From Chloranthus sessilifolius (taxonomy: Eukaryota; Streptophyta; Magnoliopsida; Chloranthales; Chloranthaceae), in NCBI GenBank assembly GCA_021018995.1, contig CM037590.1, positions 106,827,097 through 106,891,096 on the forward strand: 64,000 nucleotides of DNA. The letters are read 5' to 3'. The notes under the pieces were generated by a model. That model saw only the letters and a list, made by a program, of their open reading frames with translations, made no database searches and was not told the origin of the DNA. Shown here piece after piece: positions 14,615 through 61,769 of the stretch. Within the stretch, counting starts at the first letter, position 1. Every line of letters starts with the position of its first letter. The translations under genes were made by a program, and so were the position numbers.

Positions 14615-15180
14615 ATCCTATCGAGAGGATGTCTGAAAACTTTGATAGGAGTTGAGGATTAAAAGGAAAGAATTCGTGCACTTGGAGAAGGGTTCGATAG
14701 GATCCGAAGGCAGAAGAAGGATGAATTCATATGGATTGAGGAGTTCGATAGGATTTCAGAACCTATCGAGCAAAGAAAAGAAAGAAGAAACTATCCTATC
14801 GAAAACTTGCCTGAAGTGTCAAAGGAACCTATCGAACAGATCTGAGACCCTAGCGAAAGGACTAAAATGCTCGATTCCAACCTGTCGAAGGCACCCTGAA
14901 CCTATTGAAGGATGCATAAGCCTTTTGATAGGAATGAGAGCCAACCTATCGGGATGATGGCACATGGATCTGAACCTATTGAAAAGGACCCCTGGACCTA
15001 TCGAACTACTCAGCCGACCTATCGAATACTCCAGATATTGGGCTGAGGACCCTGAAGCTTCAAAGAAAAAACTCATCCTATCGGTACCTATCAAAGAGAC
15101 CAGGGAACCTATCGAAAGGAACTACAAGCTTACTTTTAACCTGTCGAAAGTTTCTCCAACCTGTCAAAATCGTGTGTTGA
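14615..15180 (+). repeat. Palindrome array in U3 of B's 5' LTR (CCTATCGA type)
   Basis: Irregularly spaced CCTATCGA and its complement TCGATAGG, for example near 14693, 14729, 14763, 14797, 14827, 14997, 15017 and 15109, with CCTGTCGA variants near 14881 and 15140. The same motif reappears downstream of pol at about 22525-22705. Confidence 0.75.
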
Positions 15181-22524: not shown

Positions 22525-22710
22525 TTTTAGAACCCTTCGATAAGACGGCTAATGATTTCGATAGGAATCTGGACATTTTCGAGGGGCACTGAGCCATGAC
22601 GATAGGTGAAACCAACCCTCGATAGGTTAAAAATGGCAACAAACACTTTTCGATAGGACACATCGACCTACCGCCACCATTCTCGTCATCCTATCGAAAT
22701 CGTAGTTCAC
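22525..22710 (+). repeat. Palindrome array downstream of pol in element B (CCTATCGA type)
   Basis: Copies of TCGATAGG or CCTATCGA near 22557, 22597, 22620, 22650 and 22690, plus variants. The motif is the same as in B's own LTR and differs from that of E. It lies about 130 bases after the IN stop and about 270 bases before the small ORF. Confidence 0.7.
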
Positions 22711-25095: not shown

Positions 25096-27428
25096 TGTTA
25101 AGTGGTGAAAAATGCCACTTTGCACCCTTTAACCTGACCTTTCATGGACCTGTGAGCATGCTAATAAGCCTCTGTTGAGTGTATTTTGTAGATAGCAGGG
25201 AAAGCTAGTAATAATGCAGCAAACCACTTAAGAATGCCCACAAAGAAGTCATCTCTCAGCACCATGCAAACCCAGCAATAGAACAAGGAGAAAGAAGTGA
25301 AGATAGGTCCAAAACATCCTATTGAGAGGATGTCTGAAGACTTTGATAGGAGCTGAGGATTAAAAGGAAAGAATTCGTGTAATTGGAGAAGGGTTCGATA
25401 GGATCCGAAGGTAGAAGAAGGATGAATTCGTATGGATTGAGGAGTTCGATAGGATTTCAGAACCTATCGAGCAAAGAAAAGAAAGAAGAAACTATCCTAT
25501 CGAAAACTTGCCTGAAGTGTCAAAGGAACCTATCGAACGGATCTAAGAACCTAGCGAAAGGACTAAAATGCTCGATTCCAACCTGTCGAAGGCTCCCTGA
25601 ACCTATCGAAGGATGCTTAAGCCTTTTGATAGGAATGCGAGTCAACCTATCGGGATGACGGCACACGGAGCTGAACCTGTTGAAAAGGACCCCTGGACCT
25701 ATCGAACTACTCAACCAACCTATTGAATACTCTAGATATTAGGCTGAGGACCCTGAAGCTTTAAAGAGAAAACTCATCCTATCGGTACCTATCGAAGAGA
25801 CCAGACCAGGGAACCTATCGAAAGGAACTACAAGCTTACTTTTAACCTGTCGAAAGTTTCTCCAACCTGTCAAACCTGTCGAAAAGGACCCCTGGACCTA
25901 TCGAACTACTCAACCGACCTATCGAATACTCTAGATATTGGGCTGAGGACCCTGAAGCTTCAAAGAGAAAACTCATCCTATCGGTACCTATCAAAGAGAC
26001 CAGACCAGGGAACCTATCGAAAGGAACTACAAGCTTACTTTTAACCTGTCGGAAGTTTCTCCAAACTGTCAAAATTGTGTGCTAAACTTCTCAGAAACTA
26101 TGCTATGCACACGCTGAGACTTGGTGACTTGTGGCACGCAAACCAAGGCACTCTGGTTACCAGCGCGACATTCTAGAAGATGCCTTAGAAAGCCCTAACC
26201 GACCCACGTGCTTTAACAGAACTCTAACAAACTCTGACAACCTTCTATAAGGGATTTTTGGAGGGAAAAATAGAGGAGAAAGCTCTATATTGAGATCCCC
26301 ATTTGCCATTGGGGAAGATCGAAATTCTGAGCAATTCTTTAAAGATCAGAGCTTACAGCGAGATTCCATTTCCCTCCTTTAGCCCAACCATGGTTGGCTA
26401 AATCCCTAGGAGCAGCAAGGGGTGAGCTAGATCTGTAATTTGGTAAGGTTAAGAGTGTTGCTAGGGTTAATTACTGCACAGACTACAGATCTGAGAGCAT
26501 TCCATTGTAAGAGTGACCTTGTTTGCAATGTAAATATTGTTTTCAATATTTTAATTAGATCTAAAGCTCTTTTTATTCCTTTTGGTGCTCGATTGGATTT
26601 GTGTAGAGGAGTTGCTTGATCAGCTCACCCACTTAACTGGTAGACCTCTTGGATATCATCTAAGTTCCCTAGATCTGATATCCCTGTAATTTTCTGCGTC
26701 TGTGACCTGAAAATTACAGAATCTGTAGTGGTTTTAATTGTTCTAATTGAGGCTCTGGCTTTGTAGGAAATCTCTGGGATGGTCTGTGACCATTAAGTGG
26801 ACAGATCATAACCTTAAGGTAAATCTGTGCTCAGGCCTCAATTGGATTCATCTACTGTAATCCATGGATTCGATAAAGCCTATAGCATGGTCTGTAACTA
26901 TTAAAGCGGACAGATCATAACCTTAAGGCCAGGTGGATCCTATGATTTGAAGTGGAATTTATACCCTGCAGCTGTGCTTGTGGACAGTGCCTGTGGCCAG
27001 CCGAGGGACTTGTGTGCTTTTGAACCCCTGTAATATGCTTAGCTGGACCGGATTGCAGTGAAGACAACCTCCAAGCTGTTCTTCTCCATCTTTTGAGTTT
27101 TTAAACCATCCATCTGCAAGATCTGAGGCTCCAGATTCGATCTAAAACAATCTGCATTTTAATTGTAGTTTCGTTTAAGTGACAACTCATTTCAAAACTC
27201 TCCCATGTCTTTTAACTAAAGTAGAGATAGCTAGGGTGCCAGATCTCTTACAGATATGGAGATTTATCATATTTCTAACTAGCCTCCCTGTGGACATTCC
27301 CTTACTTACCATTCTTTTAAAGCTTGCTACAACAGATCTTGAATACTTGCAGGTCTGTATGAGTATGTCTGCCTAGTTTTATTGTTGATTTTAGACCCTC
27401 ATTTGAGGGTAGGTAAACATTCCCAACA
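25096..27428 (+). repeat. 3' LTR of element B (2333 bp)
   Basis: Same ends as the 5' LTR (TGTTAAGTGG and CCCAACA) and the same internal order, with U3 array, TATA-like box near 26286 and hairpins near 26773 and 26880. It is about 207 bases longer than the 5' LTR, nearly all of it a tandem duplication in U3. Followed directly by TCTGT. Confidence 0.93.
25682..26079 (+). repeat. 199-bp tandem duplication in B's 3' LTR
   Basis: The unit starting GAAAAGGACCCCTGGACC at 25682 starts again at 25881. Each unit carries several CCTATCGA copies, so the event enlarges the palindrome array. The 5' LTR has a single copy, so it arose after insertion or the LTRs have different histories. Confidence 0.85.
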
Positions 27429-27958: not shown

Positions 27959-28615
27959 ATAAGCTATCGAGAGCTCCGAGCACCTGTCGAGAAGTTTGAA
28001 AGGCTAATTATAACATATCGAGAGGTTCTAAGGAGAAATTGTAAAGAGATCGAGAGGTTCCATAGCTGTCGAGAGGATGTGATACACATGAGTTAAGATG
28101 TCGAGAGGTTCTAAAAGTGAAATGGTGAAGAGATCGAGAGGATGACAGATCCTCTCGAGAGGTTGGAAATGCAGTAAAAAGATCTTGTCGACATCTTACC
28201 TAAAGGTGCAAGAGATATCGAGAGGTTCCAAGTACATCTCGAGAGGTTCAGCTGAACCTGTCGAGCAGTCCATGCCAACCCGTCGACAACTCACCTAAAG
28301 CCAAGCGCATTCTTGCGAGGATAGATAGAACCTGTCGAGAACCCAGTGGTAATTTCTATAACTAGTCGACAGGTTGATTATAACCTATCGAGAGGATGAA
28401 TGGAGAAATGGACAAAACGGTGAAACAGGTTTCCAATCCTATCGAGATGTTTCAATCCTGTCGAAAGCCACATAGATCCTGTCGACGAGTCATCAAATCC
28501 TATGGACTAGTGCAATTCAACTCATTGAGAGGTTCCCAAACCTATCGAAATGAAGAGCAAGGAGACTCAAAACATGTCAAGAGGTTCCCTGAACCTCTCG
28601 ACACTCGCATTAGGA
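27959..28615 (+). repeat. Palindrome array in U3 of C (TCGAGAGGTT / AACCTGTCGA type)
   Basis: Very dense copies of TCGAGAGGTT and its complement, AACCTGTCGA and CCTATCGA, for example near 28018, 28052, 28099, 28150, 28217, 28235, 28256, 28326 and 28387. The same mixture occurs downstream of pol in C (about 45866-46290) and in D. Confidence 0.75.
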
Positions 28616-31776: not shown

Positions 31777-33919
31777 TGTTGTCTGGCTACCTTGTGCTTC
31801 AAAAGGAGATTAAGATAAGAAAATTAAAGGTCTATGGACTGCACACCAAGGTAAGCCTACAGAAAGCCTGCAAGTAAATAGGGTTGTTATAGAATGTTTT
31901 AAAAGGTAAGTAAGGGTATGTCCACAGGGAAATGTGTTCTAAAGTATGGTAAATCTCCAGATTCAGAGTAGATCTGGCACTCTATCCTAATTTAAACTAA
32001 ACTAAAGCAGGAAAGAGGAGAGGTTTTGTGGTTCTGTCACTTTAACTACAGACTATAGAATTAAATGCTATTGATCCAGATCTAGTCCAACACAGAGGAT
32101 AGAGGAGATATAGAAGAGGTGAAAATTTCAAAAGGTGAGAATAATAGCTAGGATTATTAGTTTCTCACTGAAAATCAAAGGAATCAAAGGCCTTGCATAG
32201 ATCTGATTCACTACAATCCTCCATCTGGCTATAAGCTCCCCATTTCTAGCAGATGCAAGTTATAAGGATCCAATCTCAACTAGAGAATTGAAGCAAGCCT
32301 AAGGCTATGATCTTTCCTCTTTAATGGTCATAGACCATCCTAGAAATTGTTCCACTTCAAGGATCTTAATTAGAACAAGAAAATCATTGCAAATGCTGCA
32401 GATGCCAGGCTACCAGCTCCCCGTTTCTGACTGACATTCGTAGGAGTATCTAATCTAGGGAAATCAAATACGAAAAAGGGAAATATAGATCAGAATAATC
32501 TTTAAAATCCATAATTATATTGCAAGCTTACAATACTATTGTTGTCAAATCTATAATCTGTGCAATATACAGTCTATTACAAACCTTTGAATCTCTCAAT
32601 TTATAGCTTAAGACCTCACCTTAACTACTGAGAAGAGTTTAGCCACTCATGATTGGCTAAAGGGAGAATGGGAGAAGAAGGAAGGAGGGAGAATTTGGAG
32701 GGAAAAAATGGATCTCGCTCTAGGCTCTGGTTCTCTCTAATTCTGGATGGATGTTCTATATTTTCTTTAAGCTTTTATACTCTCCTCCTCTATCCTCAGA
32801 TCCGTTTCATCCAATCAGAGCGCAAGGGGATAATTCTGTTATTCTGGGCTGCTGATGTGGCTGATTTCTCTTCTAGAAGCTTTCTTCCCATTGGCTCTCA
32901 ACTGGAAAATACACATGAAGTAGTTAGGGTTTCCATGCTTGCCTAACCATTGCCAAAAATACTCCCAGGGGTCACTAAAGTGCTTTGGAACTCGTGCACA
33001 CAAATCTAGAATTGGCAGCTACTGACGGAAGATGCTGAGAAATTGACAAAATGAGTGTCGAGAGGTTCTGAGTCTGCATTATAATCACATCAACAGGTTG
33101 CATTGGCTTTCGATAGCTTTGCAGACTTCTCGACAGGATTGAAGTACTAGTCGACAAGTTTAGAAGTGTCTCGACAGGTCTGGAATGGCTCTCGATAGGT
33201 TTGAACACATCTCGACAGGTTGATGAAGATCCTATCGATAACTTGGGATAACGTCTCGAGAGGTTGGTTTAAACTTGTCGATAGGATTGCAAGATTATGT
33301 CTTCATTCTACTCAGTTCCTGACTCATCCTCTCGACAGGTTATAGACAATCCTATCGACGGTTTATAAAATCTTCAGTGAAGTGCTCGACAGGTTGGCTC
33401 AATCCTCTTGAGACTGAACGTTGCTTCTGATAAGTTATTGACAGGTTGTCTTGTACTTCTTGATAGGTTCAGTTGAACCTCACGATAAGTGACTGGATCC
33501 TCTCAACTTCATCTGTACCTTGAAGTATCCTCTCTAGAGCTTCTTATGCACATGTTCAACCTCTCGACTGCTTGGTTTTCGATCATCAAAACCTCTCGAT
33601 AGATGGACTTAACCTCTCGATAGGTTCTGTCCTGTACTTCCGCAGCTGGCACACATCTTGGGTGTGTTGTTCTTCCTTTGTTCAACATTCAGCAACCCCT
33701 TAGTAGGTTCAGTCTTTCTTCCTTGCCGTTGGACTTGGTCTCAGGCCTTTTCAATTAGATAGCACAGTCTTTCTTGGGCTCTTTTAAATAGAAATCTGTA
33801 TTCAGCTTGTAATTTATTGCTTAACTATAAAACATACTTAAAATACATTATTAGTTAGCTCAAGGGTCCAACAAAGGTTAGGTTAAGAGGTGAAAAATGA
33901 TATTTTTCATTACTTAACA
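31777..33919 (-). repeat. 3' LTR of element D (2143 bp)
   Basis: On the plus strand it runs from TGTTGTCTGG to CTTAACA, the reverse complement of a TGTTAAG...ACA LTR. TATA box (CTTTTATA as seen on plus) at 32772-32779 with CCAAT boxes at about 32812, an R/U5 hairpin at about 32298-32342, and a palindrome array at about 33055-33630. Confidence 0.92.
33055..33630 (-). repeat. Palindrome array in U3 of D's 3' LTR
   Basis: Copies of CTCGACAGG, CTCGATAGG, CTCGAGAGG and AACCTCTCGA, for example near 33131, 33173, 33192, 33213, 33256, 33339, 33387, 33559 and 33592. Matching arrays are in the other LTR (about 40585-41150) and downstream of gag-PR (about 35855-36180). Confidence 0.75.
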
Positions 33920-35850: not shown

Positions 35851-35854
35851 TCTT

Positions 35855-36180
35855 TCAAGAGGTTCATAGAACCTCTCGACTGGTTCTTTGAAATCAAAAA
35901 GCAAACCTTTAGACAGTTTCTAGACTCTAAACAAATTATGTCGAGAGGTTCACAGAATCTCTCGGTAGGTACTCTGAACCTGTCGAAAACTCAACCATAG
36001 GTCTTCATAACCTATCGAAATGCTCCTGGATCCTATCAACAACTTATTTTTTACATCTTCAAACTTGTCGAGAATTAGTTCACACTTCTCGACAGCTTCT
36101 AAATCTTATCGAAATGTAGACTGGGAACACTCAGAACCTGTCGACACGTCCCTAGAACCTATCGATAGGTTGTGTTTCAG
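35855..36180 (-). repeat. Palindrome array downstream of gag-PR in element D
   Basis: Copies near 35872 (CCTCTCGAC), 35940 (TCGAGAGG), 35979 (CCTGTCGA), 36011 (CCTATCGA), 36067, 36137 (CCTGTCGACA) and 36157 (CCTATCGATAGG, a full palindrome). The array is retained although the adjacent RT-IN region and ORF3 were deleted. Confidence 0.75.
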
Positions 36181-39309: not shown

Positions 39310-41446
39310 TGTTATCTACCAACCTTATGCTTCAAAAGGAGATTAAGATCAGAAAATTAAAGGTCTATGGACTGCACACTAAGGTAAGCCTACACAAAGC
39401 CTGCAAGTAAACATGGCTATTATAGCAAGTTTTAAAAGGTAAGTAAGGGTATGTCCACAGGGAAATGTATTCTAAAGGATGGTAAATCTCCAGATCTAGA
39501 GTAGATCTGGCACTCTATCCTAATTTAAACTAAACTAAAGCAGGAAAGATGAGAGGTTTTGTAGTTTTGTCACTTTAACTATAGACTATAGAATTAAATG
39601 TTATTGATCCAGATCTAGTCTGACACAGAGGATAGAGGAGATATAGAAGAGATGAAAAATTTAAAAGGTGAGAACAATATCTAAGGTTATTGGTTTCTCA
39701 CTGAAAATCAAAGGAATAAAAGGCCTTGCATAGATCTAATTCGCTACAATCCTCCATCTGGCTACAAGCTCCCCATTTCTGGCAGATGCAAGGTATAGGG
39801 ATCTAATCCCAACTAGAGAATTGAAGCAATCCTAAGGCTATGATTTGTCCACTTTAATGGTCATAGACCATCCTAGAGATTGTTCCACTTTAAGGATCTT
39901 GGTTAAAACAGGAAAACCATTGCAGATGTTGTAGATGTCAGGCTACCAGCTCCCCATTTTTGGCTACCATTCGTAGGAGTATCTAATTCAAGGAAATCAG
40001 ATACGAAAAAGTGAAATGTAGATAAGAATAACCTTTAAAATCTGCAATTATATTATAAGCTTATAATGCTATTGTGCCCAAATCTACAATCTGTGCAATA
40101 TACAGTCTATTACAAGCCTTTGAATCTCTCAATTTATAGCTTAAGACCTCACCCTTACTACTGAGAAGAGTTTAATCACTCATGATTGGCTAAAGAGAGA
40201 ATGGGAGAAGAAGAAAGGAGGGAGGATTTGGAGGGAAAAAATGGATCTCGCTTTAGGCTCTAATTCTCTCAAATTCTGGATGGATGTTATGTATTTTCTT
40301 CAAGCCTTTATACTCTCCTCCTCTGTTCTCAAATCTATTTCAGCCAATCAGAGCGCAAGAGAATAATTCTATTATTCTGAATTGCTGATGTGGTCGATTC
40401 TCTTCTAGAAGCTTTCTTTCCATTAGCTCTCAACTGGAAAAGACACGTGAAGTAGTTAGGGTTTCCATGTGTACCCAACTATGTGCCAAAAATACCCCCA
40501 GGAGTCACTGAAGTACTTTGGAACTCATGCATAAAATTATGGAATTGGCAGCTGCTGACGAAAGGCGCTGAGAAGTTGATAAAATGAGTGACGAGAGGTT
40601 CTGGGTCTACATTATAATCACATCGACAAGTTGCATTAGCTTCTAACAGCTTTACAGACTTCTCGACAGGATTGAAGTACTAGTCGACAGGTTTGGCAGT
40701 GTCTCGATGGGTCTAGAATGGCTCTCGATAGGTTTGGACACATCTCAATAGGTTGATGAAGATCCTGTCGACAGCTTGGAAGAACATCTTAAGAGGTTGG
40801 TTTGAACTTGTCAATAGGATTGCAGGCTTATTTCTCCATTCTGCTCAGTTCCACACTCATCCTCTTGACAGGTTATAGATAATCCTGTCGACAGCTTATA
40901 CAATCTTTAGTGCTCGACAGGTTGGCTCAATCCTCGTGAGACTGAACGTTGCTTCCGGTAAGTTATCGACAGGTTGTCTTGCACTTCTCGATAGGCTCAG
41001 TTGAACCTCACGATAAGTGACTGGATACTCTCGACTTCATCTGTACTTGAAGTATCCTCTTGATAGCTTCTTATGCACATGTTGAACCTCTCAACTGCTT
41101 GGTTTTCGATCATTAGAACCTCTCGATAGCTGGACTTAACCTCTCGATAGGTTCTGTCTTGTAGTTCTGCAGCTGGCACACATCTTGGGTGTGCTGTTCT
41201 TCCTTTATTCAACATTTAGCAACCCCTTAGTAGGTTCAATCTTTCTTCCTTGCCGTTGGATTTGGTATCAGGCCTTTCCAATTAGGTAGCACAGTGCTTC
41301 TTAGGCTCTTTTAAATAGAAATCTATATTAAGCTTGTAATTTATTGCTTAACTATAAAACATACTTAAAATATATTATTAGTTAGCTCAAGGGTCCAACA
41401 AAGGTCAGGTTAAGAGGTGAAAAATAGTATTTTTTACTACTTAACA
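39310..41446 (-). repeat. 5' LTR of element D (2137 bp)
   Basis: Same structure as 31777-33919, with a few substitutions and small indels by eye. TATA box (CCTTTATA on plus) at 40305-40312, hairpin at about 39831-39876, palindrome array at about 40585-41150. Confidence 0.92.
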
Positions 41447-45865: not shown

Positions 45866-46290
45866 ATACAACCTGTTGATAGGTTCTGAGAGTTCCTAGT
45901 TTGCATTTCGACAAGATTTAGAAGCTATCAAGAGGTGTGAATTAAATCTCGATAAGTTCTGAAGGTGTAAAAATGGTTGTCGATAGGATCCAGGAAAATT
46001 TCAACAGGTTCTAAAGGTTTTTGGTTGAATTCTCGACAGGTTCAGGGTACCTATCGAGAGGTTCTATGAACCTCTTGAAGTAACTTTTCTAGAGCCTAGA
46101 ACTTGTCGAGAGGATTATATTTTGAATTCAAAAGAACCTGTCGAGAGGTTCTGTGAACCTCTCAAAATGATTGTTCCTGTCTTCTTGAACCCGTCGACAG
46201 GATTGCATGATCCTCTCACAAGGATCAGTGACTTTCTACTCTTCCACAGGTTGTATCAACCTGTTGACACCTTGCCCTAATCCTGTCAAA
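45866..46290 (+). repeat. Palindrome array downstream of pol in element C
   Basis: Copies such as CTGTTGATAGG (45870), TCGACAAG (45910), TCGATAGG (45981), CTCGACAGG (46033), CCTATCGAGAGG (46051), CTTGTCGAGAGG (46105), CCTGTCGAGAGG (46138) and CCCGTCGACAGG (46190). The motif matches C's own LTR. It starts about 220 bases after the IN stop and ends about 370 bases before ORF3. Confidence 0.75.
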
Positions 46291-46520
46291 ATTCGTTTCC
46301 CATTTCTTTAAACCTAACGATAACTCCATTTTTGCCATTCAACAGCTTATCTTTGCGCTTTAAATTTTCTTTGGCAATTTTTCCACTTTTATTTTTCTCT
46401 CTCTACCTCACTGGCTATTACTCCAAACCCTGGCCATTTTCCCCATTGCTTCAATTTATCAAAAGCTTCACTTTGCACCTGGTCTGAGCTAGTTTGGTGT
46501 TGTGCATTTTAAGATCTGAG

Positions 46521-46545
46521 AAACCCTAGGTTTCTGCTGGTAAGC
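46521..46545 (+). promoter_or_regulatory. Telo-box and possible splice donor upstream of ORF3 in element C
   Basis: AAACCCTAG at about 46521-46529, followed by CTGGTAAGCC, a good plant 5' splice-site match, 120-140 bases before the ORF3 ATG. Element E has AAACCCTAG about 100 bases before its ORF3 ATG. This suggests a leader or internal promoter for ORF3, but it is only inferred from sequence. Confidence 0.35.
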
Positions 46546-46663
46546 CTCTCTTTTGCTCCACTTTGTGCTTTTGGCATTGCATTTGCAAATTGGTGTGGTT
46601 AATTTGATTGATAACAAAGGTCTGTGAGGTTATTGCATTTGATTATGAGAAATTGATTGAGTA

Positions 46664-47468
46664 ATGGCTGGTCAAGAGGATACCTTGGCTAATCTGTTCA
46701 AAGTACCTTTTAAATCCACCACCAAAGCCAGTAGGAAGTATAGTAGGCTCACCACACAACCCACAAAATCCCCACCTACAAAAAGAAAGCTTGTCATGGA
46801 CCAAGCTGAGAAAACTGTGAAGTCCAAGAGCGCCAAGAAATTGAAGAGGGCCCAAACTAGTGAAGAATTTGTTGAAGAGGCCCCTGAGGTAGAAATCCCT
46901 GTGCCTGAGCCTACCATTGTGCCTGAGGATAGTCCTGTGGCTGAGCCTGACATCCCTGTGAATAGAGCCACTCCCAATGAATTTGTGAATGCCTTAGGCC
47001 TGATCCCAGAGACAATTGTTGATACACCCTATTTTTCTAAGGAGGAGGACTGCAAGGCCACAATGGACTATTTGGTGAAGGCAGGTCTGACACCATTGAT
47101 GACCCCTTTGCAAGAAAAATCCTACCCTAGGGTGGTCAAGTTATGGTATCAGAACCTGAGGAAGGGGACCAAGCCGGGTTCATCTGAGCCTTGCCTTATA
47201 ACTTTGACTAATAATGTGGAAATTATGATGGATTACAATGACATTGGGGGTCCCCTCAGTTTTTGACCCAAGTTATGGGTTAGGGGAACCTGAAAATATG
47301 CCCTTCAAAATAATGGTCAGGCACCTCACTCAAGGTATTGTGCGGTCTGGGGAATAAATAATGAGGAGAGATTTATATCCCAGCATGTTATTCTTTGATT
47401 CAATTTTGAGGAAAAACATATATGTCAGTGGCCATCAGCAAGAGAGGAGAACACCAATTGTGGATGCC
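46664..47468 (+). pseudogene. ORF3 of element C, part 1 (N-terminal domain)
   Basis: Starts MAGQEDTLANLFKVP. Residues about 20-70 are basic (PTKRKLVMD, KSKSAKKLKRA), suggesting nuclear location. An acidic Glu/Pro stretch follows, then a conserved core LTPLMTPLQEKSYPRVVKLW and YQNL shared with element E. A frameshift near 47260 changes frame after NDIGGPLS, and the text continues MVRHLTQGIVRSG, MRRDLYPSMLFF until E at 47469. The core resembles the domain often annotated as putative plant transposon protein downstream of Athila pol. There is no signal peptide or transmembrane segment, so I do not call it an envelope protein. Confidence 0.7.
47464..47468 (+). other. Target site duplication of element E, left copy (ATGCC)
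   Basis: ATGCC precedes E's LTR at 47469 and is repeated at 61770-61774 after the other LTR. Confidence 0.92.
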
Positions 47469-47982
47469 TGTTGACTTCTTCTTAGTGTGCTTGATTTATG
47501 TGAGTTTTGAAAAAACAGATTTATAGCTGCTAAATTACAGTGGCTCTAGACTATATAAACAAATAAGGAAATATCAGCACAGTTAGAAGAGAATTAGCCT
47601 GCAAGATTAGGGCCAATTGTAGCAAGTTTTAAAAGTAACTGAGTGAAAGATCGTCCACAGAGAATTTGTTTAAAATGTAAGATAAACCTCCAGATCTGAG
47701 CTACCATATCTGGCTTCTTATCCTATCTAGAGAGCTGATAAGATGAGAGGTTTGAATTTGTCACGTTTAACTAACTAAAAACAAAGAAAAATTTAAACTA
47801 AATGATCCAGATCCGAGTTGGGGGAGTGATTGAAACAAAGATGGAGAAGTAATATCTAAATCTGATTTGGTCTTTGAAATCTAATGAGAATAACTGCAGC
47901 TCAGCAGAGGTGATCCAATCTTCATCTGGCTACAAGGACAGATGTAAGAGAGATAAATCTAATTCAAGGTTTAGGCTTAAAC

Positions 47983-48030
47983 TTATGGCTATGGTCTGTC
48001 CACTTTAATGGCCACAAACCATCCAATAGT
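47983..48030 (-). other. R/U5 hairpin motif in E's 3' LTR
   Basis: On the minus strand the arms are ATGGTTTGT and ACAGACCAT, which pair at all nine positions with one G-U. The second copy is at about 60401-60444. The fourth pair is G-C here and G-U in A-in. Confidence 0.65.
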
Positions 48031-48819
48031 CTTTAATCCAAATCCTTAGTTTAGAACAAGAAGCATCACTACAAATGCCGTGAGAGATTAGGTTACCAAC
48101 ACTAATTCTCACAGGATTAATGAATCAAGGGAAATTGCATGAAAAACAATAAATCTAAAGGAGTCTAATGCAATAAGGAGATCAGAGGGAACCCTTAACA
48201 TGAGTCCAATTGAGAAAATACGGTTTACAGCAACCTTTTCAAATCCACCGTTACAATTACAGAGCGCAGCTTAAACAGCTCTCAGATTTGTAGTCTTGAA
48301 TACAACTCTCTTTTGAATTACAGAAATGTCTCACAGCTCTCAATTGCAAGTCAAAGTGAAGCTATTATAGGGATTTCAGACAAACTATCTGGTTTGGAAA
48401 TGGGGGAATAGGAATGAAACTCAAAATCTGGATGTCCAAATTGGGCAAATGGTTCGTCTATTTATAGTTTTCCCCAAGTCCAACTCAGATGTGTTTCAAC
48501 CAATCAGAGGTGCTCAGAATGTATTGACCAATGGTGGTTGAGCACGAGGATCCAGATCTGTTCTGGCCAATCAGAATTCTTTGATTTGGTTCAGCCAATC
48601 AGGTGATAGAAGCATCAATTCTGTTATGTAATTCAAAAATCTGTTTGAGCTTCTAGAAGTTCCCGCCAAGTAATTTCATCTTTGGGTGTTCACATGGGGT
48701 GGAATATGCCTTTGGTTCGTGCTCAGAATATTTCGGAATGTCCTTGGGTTTTAAAACGCATTGGGACACATGCAACAGATTACTGAATTGCCCTTGTTAA
48801 AGCTGTGAATCTCCAGAAT

Positions 48820-49080
48820 ACCTTTTCGCAAAGCTTAAGGGCCTTTTCGCAAAGTGCTGTGGCTTCTGAAGCTCTTTTCACAATGTTCAATCTCTCTTCG
48901 AATTGTGTTTTCTCCTTTTCGCAAAGTTCAATCTTCTTTTCGAATTGTGTTTTCTCCTTTTCGCAAAGTTCAATCTTCTTTTCGAAGAGTTCAGATGCTC
49001 TTCGAAAACTAAGCCTGGAGGTTTATTCCTTTTCGCAGAGTTCTAGGTTCTTTACGAAACGTGTAGGTTCTTTCTTGAAA
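48820..49080 (-). repeat. Palindrome array in U3 of E (TTTTCGCAAAG / CTTTTCGAAGAG type)
   Basis: Copies of CTTTTCGCAAAG near 48825, 48843, 48916 and 48957, and TTTTCGAA or TTCGAA forms near 48895, 48936, 48978 and 48999. Includes a 41-base tandem repeat (two CTTTTCGCAAAGTTC units about 41 bases apart). Same motif in the other LTR (about 61229-61445) and downstream of pol. Confidence 0.75.
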
Positions 49081-49362
49081 AGAACTCAGATTGCATTTCT
49101 CTGCTCAATTGTTCCTGCTTCTCTACGTGTCTTTGCCTCTTCCTTTTAGACTTTTCCACAGCTGATGAGGTTGTTTCTTCACTTCCTTCCTTTGGACTGA
49201 CATGGATTGTCATCTTTTTGGCACTTTTGAGCTGCTTTTATGGTTAAGCCTGTCTTTATTGTTAGCTGCGACATAGGCACTTAAAACACTTATTTAGTTC
49301 TCTCAAAGGTCTATCAAGACTTAAGTTTAGGGGTGAAAAATAGTATTTTTCACTTGTCAACA

Positions 49363-50985
49363 CACCCCCAAACCTAAGCTTTGCTAGTCCCCGAGCAAAG
49401 AAAAGAATAATAAAAAAAACAAAGTAAAGAGCCACTTTTGTAGGGAGCACAGTTGCATTTAGCCTATGCAATAAGCCTTTTAAACCCTTAGGTGATCCCT
49501 AGTGGAGGAGTGAAGTCTCCTGAGGGTTTTCAGTGAAGGTACCCACAAACTTCTTCAATAAGTTAGTTAAGATCATCAGCTCACATGACCCACTTCCCTC
49601 AATTGATTATTCACACCTGCATCAGTTATTTTGTAAGAAGGTTTTTTCGAGAAAACTATCAGTTTAAAACTAAAATTCTGCAGTAATTCTTGTTACTACT
49701 CAGTCGATTTATGTCAGGGGCCATTTACAGGGAAAAATTTACGAACAGTTAACCTTTGATTTAGGAATCCAGCTTCGATGTTGCCCTAATCAGTTGATTT
49801 CAAACCCATTTCTCACCAGGATTTTCACTAAAAAAAACAAATGAGAAGGTTATACTATTTCACACAGCTCAAGAGCAATTACAGTCCTCAAATAGGACTG
49901 TAAGCAGGAGCATAGGCATTGCTTTTAGTTAAAAATTCACTGCTCCTTTCACCATAGACTACACAAATTCTTATCTCCATGTGATAGCTCAATCCATCAA
50001 TGATCAATAAGGACTTTTACTTGGGTTTGATTGTGGCTGATGGGTGAAATCTCTAAAAAGGGTTGGAAAGGTGTTCGTATTTGAGAAGTCAGTCAAGGTC
50101 AGGAGGTTATATGCAAACCCACTTTTCTTCAGCATAGTTTCATCTTCTTCTTTTGAATTTCCAGAGCCAAAGTGGCCATCTTTTTCTCTTTCTTTTTCAA
50201 ACTTCCAATGAAAATGCCTTCTTTCTTTTGTTTTGGTCAAGTATTTTTCTTTTGTTTTTCGAATTAGCATCGCATGCCATATTCCTCTCTTTGTTTCATC
50301 ATTGCCTTCAACTTTTACCCTTCTTTTGCTATTAAATTGTTACTCAATTCTCCTTCCTCATCTTTCTTCCTTTGTCTTCCGACTTCTCGAGGTAGGGTTA
50401 GGCTAAATGAAATGATGAGGTTTATTGGGTGAGATTTCAAAGGATTCATCGATTTATACTTTCAACCGGTGTGTATCAAGGTAGTTTTTAAAAGGTGGGG
50501 CTTTGTAAGGTTCAAACTGTCAAAAGGAGGCCTTACATCATGTCTTTAATATCATGAGTGCTATCAAAATATTTCAATTTGGATATGTGTAACTTCTAGT
50601 GTAAGTAAGCGATTCACATAATCCCTAAAAGCGTAAAAATTGCCAAAGCATACCTCCAAAGAATACATTTCAGCCCAAACCTCACTGGGTGTGGTTTTAT
50701 ATCAACTTCTTGAGGTATATCTTTCTTGTTTTCCTTCATTGTAGGTTTACTAAAACACCAATTTTCTTTTGGAAATTTCCGACATTTACTTCATGAAAGT
50801 CTTTAGAATTACGAGAAATTAATTTTAAAAAGTTTTAACCTCCTCATTTTTCAAAACAACGGTGTGAAATGACTTCATTTTCAAAAGTTTCTTGATCATA
50901 AGTCAAAGAAGCATTAACTTACTTATTTTATTGGCATACCGCCATACCCCCAAACCAAAGGGAAGCGGGGTCCACTGGTCCAAAA
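49363..50985 (-). other. Conserved 3' non-coding module of element E with two polypurine-type motifs
   Basis: Polypurine tract TTAGGTTTGGGGGTG (49363-49377, minus strand) next to the LTR, and a second GGTTTGGGGGTATGG at about 50941-50957. The small hairpin seen in A and D is decayed here (CAGTGGACCCCGCT). Shared blocks: AGGTGATCCCTAGTGGAGGA on plus (49490-49509), CTCAAGAGCAATTACAG (49867), TATCATGAGTGCTATCAA (50550). Confidence 0.7.
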
Positions 50986-51104
50986 CAGAGAAACATATAA
51001 GAAAGAAAAACAACAAGTAATAATGGCAAGAAGACAGACAAATGCATAGTATACACAAAAGAATTTTCTATTACAACTGCTTAACACAAAAAGTACAAGG
51101 AGAG

Positions 51105-53595
51105 CTAATAAGTGGGGTCAAAATCAGTATCATAGGTTGGTTCTGTGGCTCAATTGGAGTCACCGTCGAATCGAGCTAGAGTCGTGTTGGAGTCTGAACT
51201 TGATTGAGCTTTCTGAATGGTGTTTTGTAGCTCAAGATACTCCTCGATTTGATCTTCGATGAGGCCAAGGTGTTTGGTGAGGCTAGTGGTCTTCAATTTT
51301 CTTGATCCAGCTTGGCTTGCAACATGGACACCTTTGTGTTGCTCTCCTCACCAAATGAAATGTTTGACCCAAAGAAGTCCCGATTTTATCTCTTTCAAAT
51401 TTCATAAAAATCTCTAACTTCCGATTTGGTTTTCATAGGGGTGCGGATGTAAGCTTGCAAATCACCTAGCCCTTTGAACATCTCTTGAATATAAGGGTTA
51501 TTTTCCATGGCTTTGATGAGGGTGGCATATCGGGGAGGGAATGGAATGGTAGGGGACTAAAGGTGGCCCAGGTAGGGGGGGAGAAGTGGCTAGAAAGGGA
51601 CAGTGGGTCTCATGAGTGGCGTCCTGAGAGAAAATGGGGAGTGGTGGAGGGATGGAATCAAAGGAACTTGGGTTTGAGTATGTCGCTGGGTAGTAGTGGT
51701 GGGGTGGGCAGATCAACCAATATTACCTTTGGATCCGTTTGGGTGGCCTGGGAAGAAAAAATAGGTACTGTGGGGTAATGGTGGTTGTTTGGGATGTGGA
51801 AGCTAAGGTATGGAGCAGTTCCATGGTTCTTGGTGATTGTCTGTGTTGATTTGAAGTTGGGCTTGGATGGATTGGAGGTAAGTAAGGATTTGGGTAATGG
51901 ATGCAGTGTGGGAGAGGTGGGCATAGTAGAGACTGGGACAATGAGGTGGAGGGAGGAGGTGCAATGGTCAAAGGAGAGGTTGGAAAGTAGGTGAAGGGAG
52001 GAGGAGTGGTATAGGGGTGGGGTCTAGTTCCATGGTTTCAAAATAGAACCCATTAGAGAAGAGTAGGCCTCAGAGTGAAGGGCCTGAGTTTAGGTGTAGG
52101 GAGGTCTCGGTGTGTGGGCTGATGGAGCAGGGGAATTTGAAGGGCTTTGGAGCAGAGGAGTGCAGGGGGATGGGGCAATAAAATCTGTAGCTAACTCCTC
52201 TAAAGCCTGGGCATTGGAGGGTGAAATTGGTGGTGTTAGAATGGTTGGAGTGGTTGGTGTAGAGGGGGAGCCCACAATTGGAATGATGGAATGAGTGGGA
52301 GATGGGACAGTTGGGATAGGTGAAAGTGCATGGGCTTGAGTAGGGGAGTAGGGTGCAAGGGGAACTTCCTCCAAAGTAGGTGCAGAGCTGGTCACCAAAG
52401 GTAATCGGGCAGAGATGTTTCAAGGAGTGGGGCAAAAAGAGCTGGACACCACAGGGGTTGGCGAAATGGATCAGGGCAGAGTTGCTTGACAAATTTGGAT
52501 TTGCAACATGGCAGGTGCTCAATTGTAAGCTCAAATGCAGGGTGGCTTGTGGAGGCTCATCTGCATGTGGGTTCTGCTCACTCACAACTGCAGTTCAGTG
52601 ATAGGGGCATGAGCGTGTTCACCGCCTCTCTCATCCTTCTCAAGATAGCCTCGGCTTGTAGTCCAAGCCTTTTTCCCAAAATTGTGAGGGGTAATGACTT
52701 CAAATGGCTCCTCACTATCAATGTCAATTTGGCTCTGAGGAGGGTCGTGGATCAATCGCCAAATGGTAGGCTACCTTCGCCTTTTCTTCACTTTTAGTAC
52801 TTACATCAGCCATAGCTTCAAAATTAACATAGGGGCATTGAAAACCGCCTTGGAGAAATGAAAGAGGGCTCTAAAATTGGTGTTCTCCTCTCTTGGTCAG
52901 TGCTCGGACATAAAAGCTGCCCCTTAAAATGGAATCCATTAATAGAAATTGGGGGCAAGGTCTCTTCTCATGATGGATCCGTGCCCACAATACCTTGGGT
53001 TAAATGGGCGCTATCTCTCTAAAAGAGGCCGTTCGAGCGCCAAAGGACCAGAGGGATTAAATTGAAATGGTATCCCTAAAGCGTTCCCTATGTCTTCAAA
53101 TGTCACAGTAAGATCGCAATCATCAATGAAAATTACAAGGGTAGGGACATCAGCATCTTTTTCCGTGACCTTGACTAGGTTTTGGTACCATAACTTCACC
53201 ATCCTTGGGTAAATTTTCTCTGGCAAGGGGGTAAGGATATTGCTTAGTGAAGCCTCTCTAAGGTATCGTAAGGATGGCAAGCACTCTGGTTTGGTGACGA
53301 AAAAAGTTTCGTCTACCATCAGCTCGGGTATTAGTTTCTGAGCGGCAATGAAGGGATTTAGTAGGACCAAATGAATGGGCAGAGGAGTAAGCTCAAGCTC
53401 AGGGCTAGCAGCAGCAGGGGTGGGTTCCTCATGTCTAATTTTCTTACCTTTCTCCACCCTATCTGCCTTATCCAATGAAAGTTTCCGTTTAGCTGAAGTT
53501 TTGGCTTTTCCTTTTGCTTTTGGGGTCGGTTTGCTCACTTTCTTAGCAGAGGATTTGGAGAACATTGCGGCCAATGATTTCTCTGCTTTTCCCAT
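51105..53595 (-). pseudogene. ORF3 of element E
   Basis: The minus-strand ATG at 53595 (MGKAEKSLAAMFSK) is chosen over the upstream ATG at 53817 because it aligns with MAGQEDTLANLFK of C. The first part (195 codons to 53011) has a basic region (KPTPKAKGKAKTSAKRK) and the conserved core ILTPLPEKIYPRMVKLWYQN then DIGNALGI. After a stop the homology continues in other frames: RRDLAP near 52980, then long Ser/Pro/Thr-rich stretches (about 52600-51660). The end is near 51105, with an acidic DTDFDP tail resembling FDPDDIF of C. No membrane segment or signal peptide. Breaks are frequent, but some may be sequencing errors in this element. Confidence 0.65.
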
Positions 53596-53692
53596 TCTAG
53601 ATTGATGTAGAAAAAATGCCCAAAATAGATGCTGACACAGAATCAACTTACTAGATGATAACCAGAGAGAATGGTTAGAGAAATACCGAGAT

Positions 53693-53701
53693 CTAGGGTT
53701 T
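53693..53701 (-). promoter_or_regulatory. Telo-box upstream of ORF3 in element E
   Basis: AAACCCTAG on the minus strand, about 100 bases before the ORF3 ATG, in the position of the same motif in C. Plant telo-boxes are common in promoters and 5' leaders, but one short motif is weak evidence alone. Confidence 0.35.
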
Positions 53702-53924
53702 ATGGTTGAACGAGTTGTTTGCTTTGCAGAAATCCCCCAGATTACAAGCTGAAATCCTTCTCTGAAAATGCAAATGATCTGCACAATCGAAAAGGGTAGT
53801 AAACTTGTTAACTGCAAGCAAAGAGAAGTAGGGTAGCAGTGAAGAGTCGCTCTGCAGAAAGAGTTTGAAATGAAACCCCGACTTCGAAAGGGGTTTAAAT
53901 ATACTCAAAGTTAATGTCGCAAAG

Positions 53925-54215
53925 CGCCTTTAAGTTTTCGAAAAGTTCCAAAAGAGACCTTTTTACAATTGCGAATGGCATCAATACCATTTGACAAGTT
54001 AACAGCTTCAGAAACATCATTTCGCAAAGGAATTAGCTTCAGAACTATCTTTTCGAAAAGAAAATAGCTTCAGCTCTAACTATTCCAAAAGCACATCTTT
54101 GCTTTCGAGCAGTTCATTACAGCTCCAGAGTCTATTCGAAAAGTAATTTGGACTTTGCGAAAAGCGAATTATGACTTTGCGACTGAACTTTAAGCATGTT
54201 TCAACTATGCGAAAA
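53925..54215 (-). repeat. Palindrome array downstream of pol in element E (TTTTCGAAAAG type)
   Basis: Copies near 53934 (AGTTTTCGAAAAGTT), 54020 (TTTCGCAAAGG), 54050 (CTTTTCGAAAAG), 54101, 54133 (TTCGAAAAG), 54155 (TTTGCGAAAAG), 54177 and 54210. The core is the one in E's LTR, not the CCTNTCGANAGG of neighbours B, C and D. Confidence 0.75.
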
Positions 54216-54286
54216 GAGATAAAAGCAGAAACAGAGAAAATAAGCAAAAACTATGATATATAAACATAATGTACAGTTTTCTACCA

Positions 54287-55633
54287 TCATATTTTTGGAG
54301 ATTCGTGATGATAGATGGGCAGCACAGGCTCCTGGGTATTTTCAATGCATGGTTTGAGCCTCTGACCATTGACCTTTATGATTCTTCCATTACTTGGATC
54401 AAGGATGTCAACAGCTCCCGAAGGGGTTGCTTGAATGACAGTGTATGGCCCATCCCATCTGGATCTCAGTTTTCCTGGGAAAAACTTGAGCTTTGAGTTA
54501 AATAACCATACCTTAGAACCAGCTGTGAACTCTTTTCTCAATAAATTTTTATCATGAAAAGTTTTGACTTTCTCTTTATATAATCTTGAATTGGTGTATG
54601 CATCCATTCGCAGCTCTTCTAACTCAGCAAGTTGCAATTTCCTGTGATTACCAGTACTTAGATCCATGTTCAATGTTTTAATGGCCCAAAAAGCTTTATA
54701 TTCTAACTCTACTGGTAAATGGCATGCTTTGCCATAGACCAACCTAAATGGGGACATACCAATTGGGGTTTTATAGGCTGTCCTATATGCCCACAATGCA
54801 TCATTCAGCTTAAAGGACCAATCCTTTCTGTCCTTCTTCATAGTCTTTTCCAAAATATGTTTGATTTCTCTATTGGAAATCTCCACTTGTCCACTGGTTT
54901 GTGGATGATATGGAGTGGCTACTCTATGAGTCACAGAGTATTTCTTCAACAATGTTTCAAAATGTCTATTACAAAAATGGCTTCCCCCATCACTGATAAT
55001 GGCTCTGGGAAAACCAAACCTGGAAAAAATGTGATCCTTAAGAAATTTCAAAACCACTTTGTGATCATTTGTTTTAGTAGCTGTGGCTTCAATCCATTTG
55101 GATACATAATCCACAACTACTAAAATGAAGTTATTCCCATTGGAAGGAGGAAAGGGACCCATGAAGTCTATCCCCCAAACATCAAACAACTCAACTACCA
55201 AAATAGGCTGTAAAGGCATTGAGTTTCTCTTGGAAATGCTGCCTAATTTCTGACAGTTCTGGCAGGATTTACAATGCTGCAGGGCATCCTTGAAAAGTGT
55301 AGGCCAATAAAATCCACACTGCAAAACTTTTGCAGCAGTTTTGTTCCCACTAAAATGACCTCCACAGGCCTGTTCATGACACATAGAAAGTATTCTATGA
55401 AATTCTTGGTCAGGGACACATTTCCTTATTATTTGATCTGCACAACTCTTAAACAGATAAGGATCCTCCCAGATGAAGTGTTTAACTTTTGAGAAGAAAA
55501 GATCTTTATCCATTCTATTCCAATGGTGAGGAATTCTTCCAGTAGCCAAAAAGTTGACTATGTTGGCAAACCAAGGAGTGTGTTCACTAATGGCAAAAAG
55601 TTGCTCATCAGGGAAAGATTCATTGATAGGCAA
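54287..55633 (-). CDS. Integrase of element E, uninterrupted 448-codon reading frame
   Basis: The frame opens [16 protein letters not shown] and ends YHHESPKI. The ATG at 55633 lies in the RH-IN connector; in an intact element IN is cut from the polyprotein, so this ATG is not a real start. Zinc-binding region [12 protein letters not shown] with CKSCQNC. Catalytic core: Asp in [12 protein letters not shown], Asp in ISDGGSHF, Glu in [12 protein letters not shown], spaced exactly 35 residues between the last two. GPY-type C-terminal module (RWDGPYTVI, then VNGQRLKP). All catalytic residues are present, the best preserved enzyme in the window. RT and RH upstream are frameshifted, so the full polyprotein is not made as read here. 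Confidence 0.88.
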
Positions 55634-56030
55634 CCTATCAATCTCTGATTAAAAAAATTGGAGAGGTGATCACCACCACATTCTCCACCTTTTTATCTTT
55701 AATCAAGGTCAAATTCACGTAATAGGAGAATCCACGATTAATCTTAGTTTGGTGTCCTTCTTAGACAGAAGGTATTTCAAGGCAGAGTGGTCAGTGAACA
55801 CCACTATTTGTGAACCCAAGACATATGACCTGAATTTTTCTAAAGCAAAAACAATTGCCAGCAGCTCCTTCTCAGTAGTTGTATAATTGAGCTGTGCATC
55901 AATCATTGATCTACTAGCATAAGCTATAACATGAGGCAGCTTATCTTTTCTCTGTCCAAGGACAGCTCCCAAAGCATAATCTGATGCATCACACATCAGT
56001 TCAAAAGGTAATGAATAATATGGAGCTGAA
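55634..56030 (-). pseudogene. RNase H of element E
   Basis: Reads [57 protein letters not shown], with catalytic Asp, Glu and Asp all present. Disrupted at both ends by small indels (near 55735 and 56030). Confidence 0.85.
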
Positions 56031-59859: not shown

Positions 59860-59877
59860 TCCCCGGCAACGGCGCCA
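59860..59877 (-). other. Primer binding site of element E (perfect tRNA-Asp complement)
   Basis: On the minus strand TGGCGCCGTTGCCGGGGA, an exact complement of the 3' end of plant tRNA-Asp as I know it. Confidence 0.93.
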
Positions 59878-59883
59878 AAAACT

Positions 59884-61769
59884 TGTTGACTTCTTCTTAG
59901 TGTGCTTGATTTATGTGAGTTTTGAAAAAACAGATTTATAGCTGCTAAATTACAGTGGCTCTAGACTATATAAACAAATAAGGAAATATCAGCACAGTTA
60001 GAAGAGAATTAGCCTGCAAGATCAGGGCCAATTGTAGCAAGTTTTAAAAGTGCGTGAGTGAAAGATCGTCCACAGAGAATTTGCTTAAAATGTAAGATAA
60101 ACCTCCAGATCTGAGATACCAGATCTGGCTTCTTATCCTATCTAGAAAGCTGATAAGATGAGAGGTTTGAATTTGTCACGTTTAACTAACTAAAAATAAA
60201 GAAAAATTTAAACTAAATGATCCAGATCCGAGTTGGGGGAGTGATTGAAACAAAGATGGAGAAGTAATATCTAAATCTGATTTGGTCTTTGAAATCTAAT
60301 GAGAATAACTGCAATTTCAGAGGTGATTCAATCTTCATCCTGCCACAAGCACGTATGTAAGAGAGATAAATCTAATTCAAGGATTAGGCTTACACTTACG
60401 GCTATGGTCTGTCCACTTTAATGGCCACAAACCATCCAATAGTCTTTAATCCAAATCCTTAGTTTAGAACAAGAAGCATCACTACAAATGCCGTGAGAGA
60501 TTAGGTTACCAACACTAATTCTCACAGGATTAATGAATCAAGGGAAATTGCATGAAAAACAGTAAATCTAAAGGAGTCTAATGCAATAAGGAGATCAGAG
60601 GGAACCCTTAACATGAGTCCAATTGAGAAAATACGGTTTCTGACAACCTTTTCAAATCCAATTACAATTACGAGCGCGACTTAATGACTCTCAAATTTGT
60701 AGTCTTGAATACAACTCTCTTTTGAATTACCGAAATGTCTCACAGCTCTCAATTGCAAGTCAAAGTGAAGCTATTACAGGGATTTCAGACAAACTATCTG
60801 GTTTGGAAATGGGGGAATAGGAATGAAACTCAAAATCTGGATGTCCAAATTGGGCAAATGGTTCGTCTATTTATAGTTTTCCCCAAGTCCAACTCAGATG
60901 TGTTTCAACCAATCGAGGTGCTCGTAATGTATTGACCAATGGTGGTCCAGGATCAAGGATCTGTTCAGCTCGCCAATCAGAATTCATCGATTTGGTTCAG
61001 CCAATCAGGTGATAGAAGCATCAATTTTGTTATGTAATTCAAAAATCTGTTTGAGCTTCTAGAAGTTCCCGCCAAGTAATTTCATCTTTGGGTGTTCACA
61101 TGGGGTGGAATATGCCTTTGGTTCGTGCTCAGAATCTTCCGGAATGTCCTTGGGTTTTAAAATGCATTGGGACACGTGCAACAGATTACTGAATTGCCCT
61201 TGTTAAAGCTGCGAATCTCCAGAATACCTTTTCGCAGAGCTTAAGGGCCTTTTTGCAAAGTGCTGTGGCTTCTGAAGCTCTTTTCGCAATGTTCAATCTC
61301 TCTTCGAATTGTGTTTTCTCCTTTTCGCAAAGTTCAATCTTCTTTTCGAATTGTGTTTTCTCCTTTTCGCAAAGTTCAATCTTCTTTTCGAAGAGTTCAG
61401 ATGCTCTTCGAAAACTAAGCCTGGAGGTTTATTCCTTTTCGCAGAGTTCCGTGTTCATTTAAACGTGCAGGTTCTTTGTGAAAAGAACTCTGTATTGCAT
61501 TTCTCTGTTCGAATTGTTCCCTGCTTCTCTTACAGGTCTTTGCCTCTTCCTTTTAGACTTTTCCACAGCTGATGAGGTTGTTTCTTCACTTCCTTCCTTT
61601 GGACTGACATGGATTGTCATCTTTTTGACACTTTTGAGCTGCTTTTATGGTTAAGCCTGTCTTTATTGTTAGCTGCAACATAGGCACTTAAAACACTTAT
61701 TTAGTTCTCTCAAAGGTCTATCAAGACTTAAGTTTAGGGGTGAAAAATGGTATTTTTCACTTGTCAACA
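59884..61769 (-). repeat. 5' LTR of element E (1886 bp)
   Basis: Same order as 47469-49362. TATA box (CTATTTATAG on plus) at 60867-60876, hairpin at about 60401-60444, TTCGAA array at about 61229-61445. Differences from the other LTR are clustered at 60300-60360, 60640-60740, 60910-60990 and 61445-61535. Confidence 0.93.

Follow-up and report, generated by a model that had tools for sequence, protein, structure and literature searches.

Matched arrays of dyad boxes in the U3 region and behind pol of Athila-like retrotransposons in Chloranthus sessilifolius

A 64-kb stretch of contig 7 in the 2.17-Gb genome of Chloranthus sessilifolius (here called the window, meaning the whole stretch of 64,000 nucleotides) contains a nest of Athila-like Ty3/gypsy elements, referred to as A to E. 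Elements B to E carry arrays of short palindromic boxes both in the U3 region of their long terminal repeats (LTRs) and in the gap after pol. The nested elements are recognised by LTR pairs found in a self-comparison, by Athila-type primer binding sites, by an integrase which ends pol, and by a third open reading frame (ORF3) in E and C. The name Athila is retained from an earlier reading of the same DNA, the original prediction; it is set by these element features and not by a reverse transcriptase tree. The primer binding site TGGCGCCGTTGCCGGGG, which we take to be the complement of tRNA-Asp, is exact in E and is found with 1-2 mismatches at three more places in the window; the exact 18-mer of the Athila-type site has 4,907 matches genome-wide. 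In Calypso/Diaspora, a primer binding site base pairing to tRNA-Asp has been shown (PMC1142308; this and all later citations are to excerpts of the papers). The domains rve and H2C2 adjoin the pol end of E, as in gypsy gene order. An env-like gene or ORF3 after pol is present in part of the elements: in E, in C, and in 12 of 13 array-bearing loci outside the window. Matches of ORF3 to PF20167 are weak in three of four frames (E-value 0.001-0.14, under the 45-bit cut-off), and a Pfam profile search of the E and C frames gave no PF20167 match. A DNA similarity search against plasmids gave no match. The main features of E and C are as follows.

59884..61769, minus strand: 5' LTR of E, 95.4% identical to 47469-49362 in the self-comparison
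47469..49362, minus strand: 3' LTR of E, from the self-comparison
59861..59877, minus strand: primer binding site TGGCGCCGTTGCCGGGG of E, exact match
54287..55648, minus strand: 3' part of pol of E with the integrase (rve, H2C2; domain search), its end adjoining the box array
53011..53595, minus strand: ORF3 frame of E, counted from the first ATG, with a basic N-terminus and without a Pfam match
46664..47266, plus strand: ORF3 frame of C, ending just short of the E LTR (47469)

The box arrays of B to E lie where the original prediction had put them, and their limits are given here together with the boxes assigned to A.

61228..61485, minus strand: U3 array in the 5' LTR of E, CTTTKCGMAAAG class, 10 boxes at no more than 2 mismatches
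48822..49061, minus strand: U3 array in the 3' LTR of E
53934..54216, minus strand: post-pol array of E, of the same motif class as the U3 of E
27963..28605, plus strand: U3 array in the 5' LTR of C
45872..46271, plus strand: post-pol array of C, CCTNTCGANAGG class
40554..41151, minus strand: U3 array in the 5' LTR of D
33054..33624, minus strand: U3 array in the 3' LTR of D
35851..36169, minus strand: post-pol array of D
14617..15151, plus strand: U3 array in the 5' LTR of B
25318..26056, plus strand: U3 array in the 3' LTR of B
22533..22701, plus strand: post-pol array of B, half-sites CCTATCGA / TCGATAGG
9082..9411, plus strand: CCTCGCGAG/CCTAGCGAG boxes in the presumed LTR of element A (putative assignment)
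10224..10381, plus strand: second cluster, of CGCG-class boxes (putative assignment to A)

The arrays are real and non-random, and the case for them is stronger than first claimed. Boxes were counted with the family motifs and compared with 200 first-order Markov resamplings per array at equal thresholds. E has 10 boxes in U3 (resampled mean 0.93) and 9 after pol (0.77); B has 14 (0.08) and 5 (0.04), C has 21 (1.2) and 15 (0.7), and D has 18 (0.8) and 11 (0.5). Motif density thus stands above that of shuffled sequence in all eight arrays, with 5-21 boxes per array against 0.04-1.2. The boxes had been described as palindromes centred on CG. This does not hold throughout: the word CCTCGCGAG of A has a GC centre between two CGs. 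The original prediction had also pointed out that D keeps its array despite its deletions; a decayed copy would show the same array, which is therefore no sign of function. Boxes of the CCTNTCGANAGG class are also found at 1499-2141 of the window, in an LTR-like stretch outside elements B to E. In three of the eight arrays the stronger half of the dyad changes sides along the array, tending to lie on the right near its start and on the left towards its end (Spearman -0.40 for the C U3 at 27963-28605, -0.47 for the C post-pol array at 45872-46271 and -0.67 for the D U3 at 40554-41151); this gradient is not significant in the remaining five.

One motif class is used within an element and another between families. 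All 1,024 ten-base dyads were scanned with no CG presumed, and the top word is common to U3 and the post-pol array in B (CTATCGATAG), D (CTGTCGACAG) and E (TTTTCGAAAA); the two top words of C, CTCTCGAGAG / CTGTCGACAG, are near-identical, differing at one dyad position. Some signals are weak: the post-pol array of B has a z of 3.6 where resampling reaches up to 3.5, and that of locus L097 a z of 3.7 where resampling again reaches up to 3.5. Outside the window, 30 primer binding sites (from the 4,907 matches) and 30 pol ends (from 12,915 matches to a pol-end pattern) were studied as numbered loci. These were picked in coordinate order starting from contig 1, so the sample is not random. They include a CAATCGATTG class in U3 and after pol, CTCGCGAG in the U3 of L094/L095 and L096/L097, whose post-pol arrays bear CGCG-core words, and TCGATGCATCGA / TCGATTAATCGA words in the U3 of other elements. 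In four elements outside the window U3 and post-pol region can be paired: L031/L063, L034/L070 (internally deleted, with ends 1.9 kb apart), L094/L095 and L096/L097. Together with B to E, the motif class agrees between U3 and post-pol region in 8/8 elements. Of the 40,320 possible assignments of U3s to post-pol arrays, only 2 attain the observed 8-mer sharing, one of them being the true assignment, and the predicted correlation of U3 and post-pol motifs across families is thereby borne out; the eight elements amount to five motif classes and not to eight independent cases, since the words of B, C and D are related and cross-match strongly.

The post-pol array is no plain copy of U3, since the best local match between the two within an element is just 11-35 bp; in L096/L097 the longest match is non-motif, and the 35-bp match, between the U3 of L031 and the post-pol array of L063, spans two boxes. 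Simple duplication of U3 is therefore rejected as the origin of the second array, in line with the original prediction. A seemingly discordant pair, L056/L099 (one primer binding site and one pol end, 8.0 kb apart), was dropped on account of nesting: a C-type LTR begins 1,160 bp past the primer binding site, so the pol end is assigned to a nested element. L100/L091, of the AATCGT...ACGATT class, was left out of the pairing for having too few boxes, and L092/L093 for having no post-pol array. A possible extra motif class, a dyad of AATCGT and ACGATT spaced by about 5 bp, is seen in the U3 of L056 and L100 and after pol in L091; the count of such spaced dyads did not stand out.

The boxes had been called irregularly spaced, which is not the case. 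The distances between adjacent boxes have maxima at 21-22 and 31-33 bp; in B to E the boxes are phased near 10.5 bp, with spectral peaks at 10.4 (E), 10.5 (B), 10.5 (D) and 10.6 bp (C). Within the band of 10-11 bp, the observed value is matched by none of 2,000 jittered sets for each of E, C and D, and by 45 of 2,000 for B. For the CAATCGATTG class it is reached by 12 of 2,000 jitters, with a top period of 11.4 and a second of 10.4. Exact CAATCGATTG pairs number 20,419 genome-wide at 22 bp against 79 at 17 bp, and CTNTCGANAG pairs 1,873 at 21 bp against 79 at 25 bp; such counts reflect how many copies a family has and should not be taken as independent events. The 21-22 bp step is seen again in several motif classes. 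A two-turn step which recurs while the spacers diverge would be expected of a protein whose neighbouring copies touch on the same side of the helix. In the U3s of the L036-L060 group, TCGATGCATCGA / TCGATTAATCGA pairs stand at 21-22 bp and the next pair is often 76 bp away.

Boxes are conserved against diverging spacers. Between families of the CAATCGATTG class, the box arms differ by 10% after pol (12 loci) and by 1% in U3 (4 loci), and the aligned spacers by 42%; this contrast is somewhat inflated, since the motif served to define the boxes and these in turn anchor the alignment. Circular shifts of the box mask do equally well in 0 of 659 and 0 of 396 cases. Comparisons of C with D (8/318 shifts after pol, 10/647 in U3) and of E with L069 (9/354) point in the same direction.

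The second array goes with ORF3. An array follows pol in 13 of the 30 pol-end loci, 12 of them of the CAATCGATTG class; the other is L069, whose boxes belong to the class of E, yet which falls short in the unbiased dyad scan (z 4.0, under the resampling maximum of 4.2). A marker, GAGGACANTG / AGGTTTGGGG, is absent within 1.5 kb in all 13, and 12 of these loci hold a frame of 95-259 amino acids behind the array (only 44 in L089). In all 17 array-less loci the marker lies 347-678 bp past pol, and the longest frames have 23-94 amino acids. The early marker probably signifies that ORF3 is absent, since in L097 it comes after the ORF3 start region. The 30 loci come from few families, so they are not 30 independent cases of the association.

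A TATA box is found at a fixed distance from the arrays of one class. In the CAATCGATTG post-pol arrays it starts exactly 16 bp from the centre of the last box in 9 of 12 loci and at 12 bp in L086; none was found in L066 and L089. In the CAATCGATTG U3s it starts 36 bp from the last box in 4/4. The letters in between differ, so it is the distance that is kept and not the sequence. In L097, CTATAAATA stands ahead of the next ATG frame, and E has a TATA-like sequence right after its post-pol array:

53894..53903, minus strand: TATA-like TATATTTAAA of E, candidate internal promoter

The ORF3 protein is a candidate binder of the boxes. That ORF3-less elements keep their U3 arrays, which would speak against ORF3 as binder, is not borne out: L092/L093, the sole ORF3-less element with a known U3, has one perfect U3 dyad and no array. 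L092 belongs to the L047/L053/L059 LTR family, and its relative L047 (LTR 91.6%) has two dyads 22 bp apart.

The arrays had been described as paired. In B to E this stands, as clusters of at least four own-class boxes are found only in LTR stretches and after pol; it does not hold for the CAATCGATTG lineage, which has boxes in the 5' leader as well. Leader boxes are present in three of four elements (L031, L035 and L058) where, counting from the primer binding site, they lie at +70 to +159 and +555 to +1053; in L034, the fourth element viewed from its primer binding site, the leader region is deleted. The clusters in these three leaders are paired at 22 bp and stand ahead of gag. The last 1.5 kb of pol holds 0-1 box in each of the 12 CAATCGATTG loci. 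More 22-bp CAATCGATTG pairs are found past the post-pol array of L031/L063, perhaps behind ORF3 (C1:2901437-2902732). At C1:70820954-70889264 and C6:44817219-44870421, element marks recur every ~9.7-10.7 kb (one step is absent on C1), a regularity that would fit complete elements arranged head to tail in tandem.

These observations are probably best explained by a duplicated, helically phased enhancer module which would serve both the LTR promoter and an internal promoter of ORF3. The best-supported interpretation takes the boxes as sites for a factor with a specificity that varies among families, and it is drawn from two separated arrays with one motif class per element, from the conservation of boxes against diverging spacers, and from spacing which follows the helix in B to E; the original prediction of a bound, coevolving factor is thus partly supported, with binding and coevolution putative. 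The arrays would be promoter-proximal enhancers in which dyad sites are bound by a putative dimeric DNA-binding factor. Two or three turns separate neighbouring sites, which face the same side of the helix, so that bound dimers could touch and act jointly. The module copy in U3 would drive genomic RNA from the LTR, and the second copy, which has a TATA box to itself and lies in the gap from pol to ORF3, would drive an ORF3 messenger; one factor would then control both promoters. If a lineage shifted to a new recognition sequence, both arrays would be forced to shift, and they would stay matched.

Several points weigh against this reading. No canonical TATA box was found directly behind the post-pol arrays of B and C, and the CAATCGATTG leader boxes are not at an obvious promoter. 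In the two CGCG elements (L094/L095 and L096/L097), agreement between U3 and post-pol words is limited to the CGCG core, and the phasing of the CGCG class is not significant (401/2,000 jitters). Among 30 copies of the array of C itself, the lower variability of boxes relative to spacers does not reach significance (46/421 shifts), which would be expected under neutral decay of single copies; the most variable part among these copies is the CG core (14%). Spliced env messages have also been predicted for Athila and BAGY2 (PMC2829016).

It is conceivable, if on balance unlikely, that the boxes are an anti-silencing platform of the kind described for VANC, to which a host protein, or one made by the element with ORF3 among the candidates, would bind to keep the element unmethylated, with promoter use secondary. 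In VANDAL transposons, short family-specific motifs are clustered in noncoding parts and coevolve with the VANC factor (PMC5735166, Nat Commun 2017). The motifs here likewise differ between families and lie in noncoding parts, and the spread of CAATCGATTG boxes through U3, leader and the gap between pol and ORF3, with almost none in pol, would fit such a role too. A CpG core could render binding sensitive to methylation, and the sole ORF3-less element with a known U3 lacks a U3 array. However, the VANDAL elements are not LTR retrotransposons and their VANC protein is known, and VANC21 motifs are described as non-palindromic and in one orientation (PMC5735166), whereas those here are phased dyads whose stronger half varies within arrays. 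The fixed distances to TATA suggest transcription, and no VANC-like gene turned up, although no search was aimed at VANC genes.

A role or a liability at the RNA level is improbable. Both arrays would fall in the 3' half of the genomic RNA, judging from the layout of the element, and palindromes could pair within the transcript (dimerisation or hairpins) and feed small RNAs, as argued for maize Sirevirus LTRs, in which palindromic clusters have been tied to small RNAs (Bousios et al. 2016, as cited in PMC10760457). A period of ~10.5 bp belongs to DNA and not to single-stranded RNA, a perfect 12-bp dyad has no loop for a local hairpin, and a pure liability would not stay conserved while spacers diverge. 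Least probable is that the arrays have no function and arose when slippage and local copying carried part of U3 into the gap behind pol, where it then drifted. Traces of local copying do exist, as a 42-bp unit in the U3 of E, a repeated two-box unit in L031 and the 35-bp match between L031 and L063, but the short U3/post-pol matches, the matched arrays in five motif classes and the return of the 21-22 bp step across several classes already largely contradict this explanation.

The closest parallel to the duplicated enhancer module is found in another superfamily. In copia gene order the integrase lies ahead of the reverse transcriptase; the Athila elements here, as Ty3/gypsy elements, have it at the 3' end of pol. 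Sireviruses, which are Ty1/copia elements, carry symmetric repeated-motif (RM) boxes in their LTRs (Bousios et al. 2010, PMC2829016). As here, these are family-specific palindromes upstream of TATA, and TATA follows the CpG island of the LTR at a mean distance of 37 bp, which comes near the 36 bp found here between last U3 box and TATA. A second cluster lies upstream of ENV in ENV-containing elements only, which resembles the distribution found here (an ORF3-sized frame in 12/13 array loci and in none of the 17 array-less loci); an internal promoter could not be identified there with certainty (PMC2829016). The Sirevirus boxes have a CGG-CCG core, with the exception of Tnd-1 (ACAATCGATTGT), and this core is absent from the top words here (CTATCGATAG, CTGTCGACAG, TTTTCGAAAA, CAATCGATTG, CCTCGCGAGG). 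Helical phasing is not mentioned for RM boxes in the excerpt of that paper. The exceptional motif of Tnd-1 (PMC2829016 Table 3) has the core CAATCGATTG in common with the Athila class of that name. Among Athila elements, a promoter of the ENV ORF has been annotated in Athila6A (Panda et al. 2016, PMC4977677). This is an Athila element with a separate promoter ahead of an env-like ORF, and in the elements here such a promoter is predicted from the TATA box; no palindromic array is described in the excerpt of that work. The original prediction knew of no description of such paired arrays in Athila elements. This stands, as a literature search of titles and abstract openings, with few subscription papers covered, found no report of palindromic arrays in Athila, although the Sirevirus boxes come near. 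The proposed link of the second array to ORF3 transcription, in the order array, TATA, ORF3, is added by the present analysis.

Expression of the third gene in plant env-class elements has so far been attributed to predicted splicing or stop-codon readthrough. The order of array, TATA and ORF3 supplies a testable site and start point for it. A spacing which is constant while the letters change is a handle for isolating the factor, with dyad probes two turns apart, and the elements offer a system in which the evolution of binding specificity can be followed at two linked places. More tentatively, a dyad architecture which persists while its letters change in both promoters may be the mark left by a DNA-binding protein that evolves fast, either borne by the element, with ORF3 as candidate, or supplied by the host in an arms race. 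In Athila, a stacked array of its dimers would couple genomic and ORF3 transcription, a layout which Sireviruses would have reached independently.

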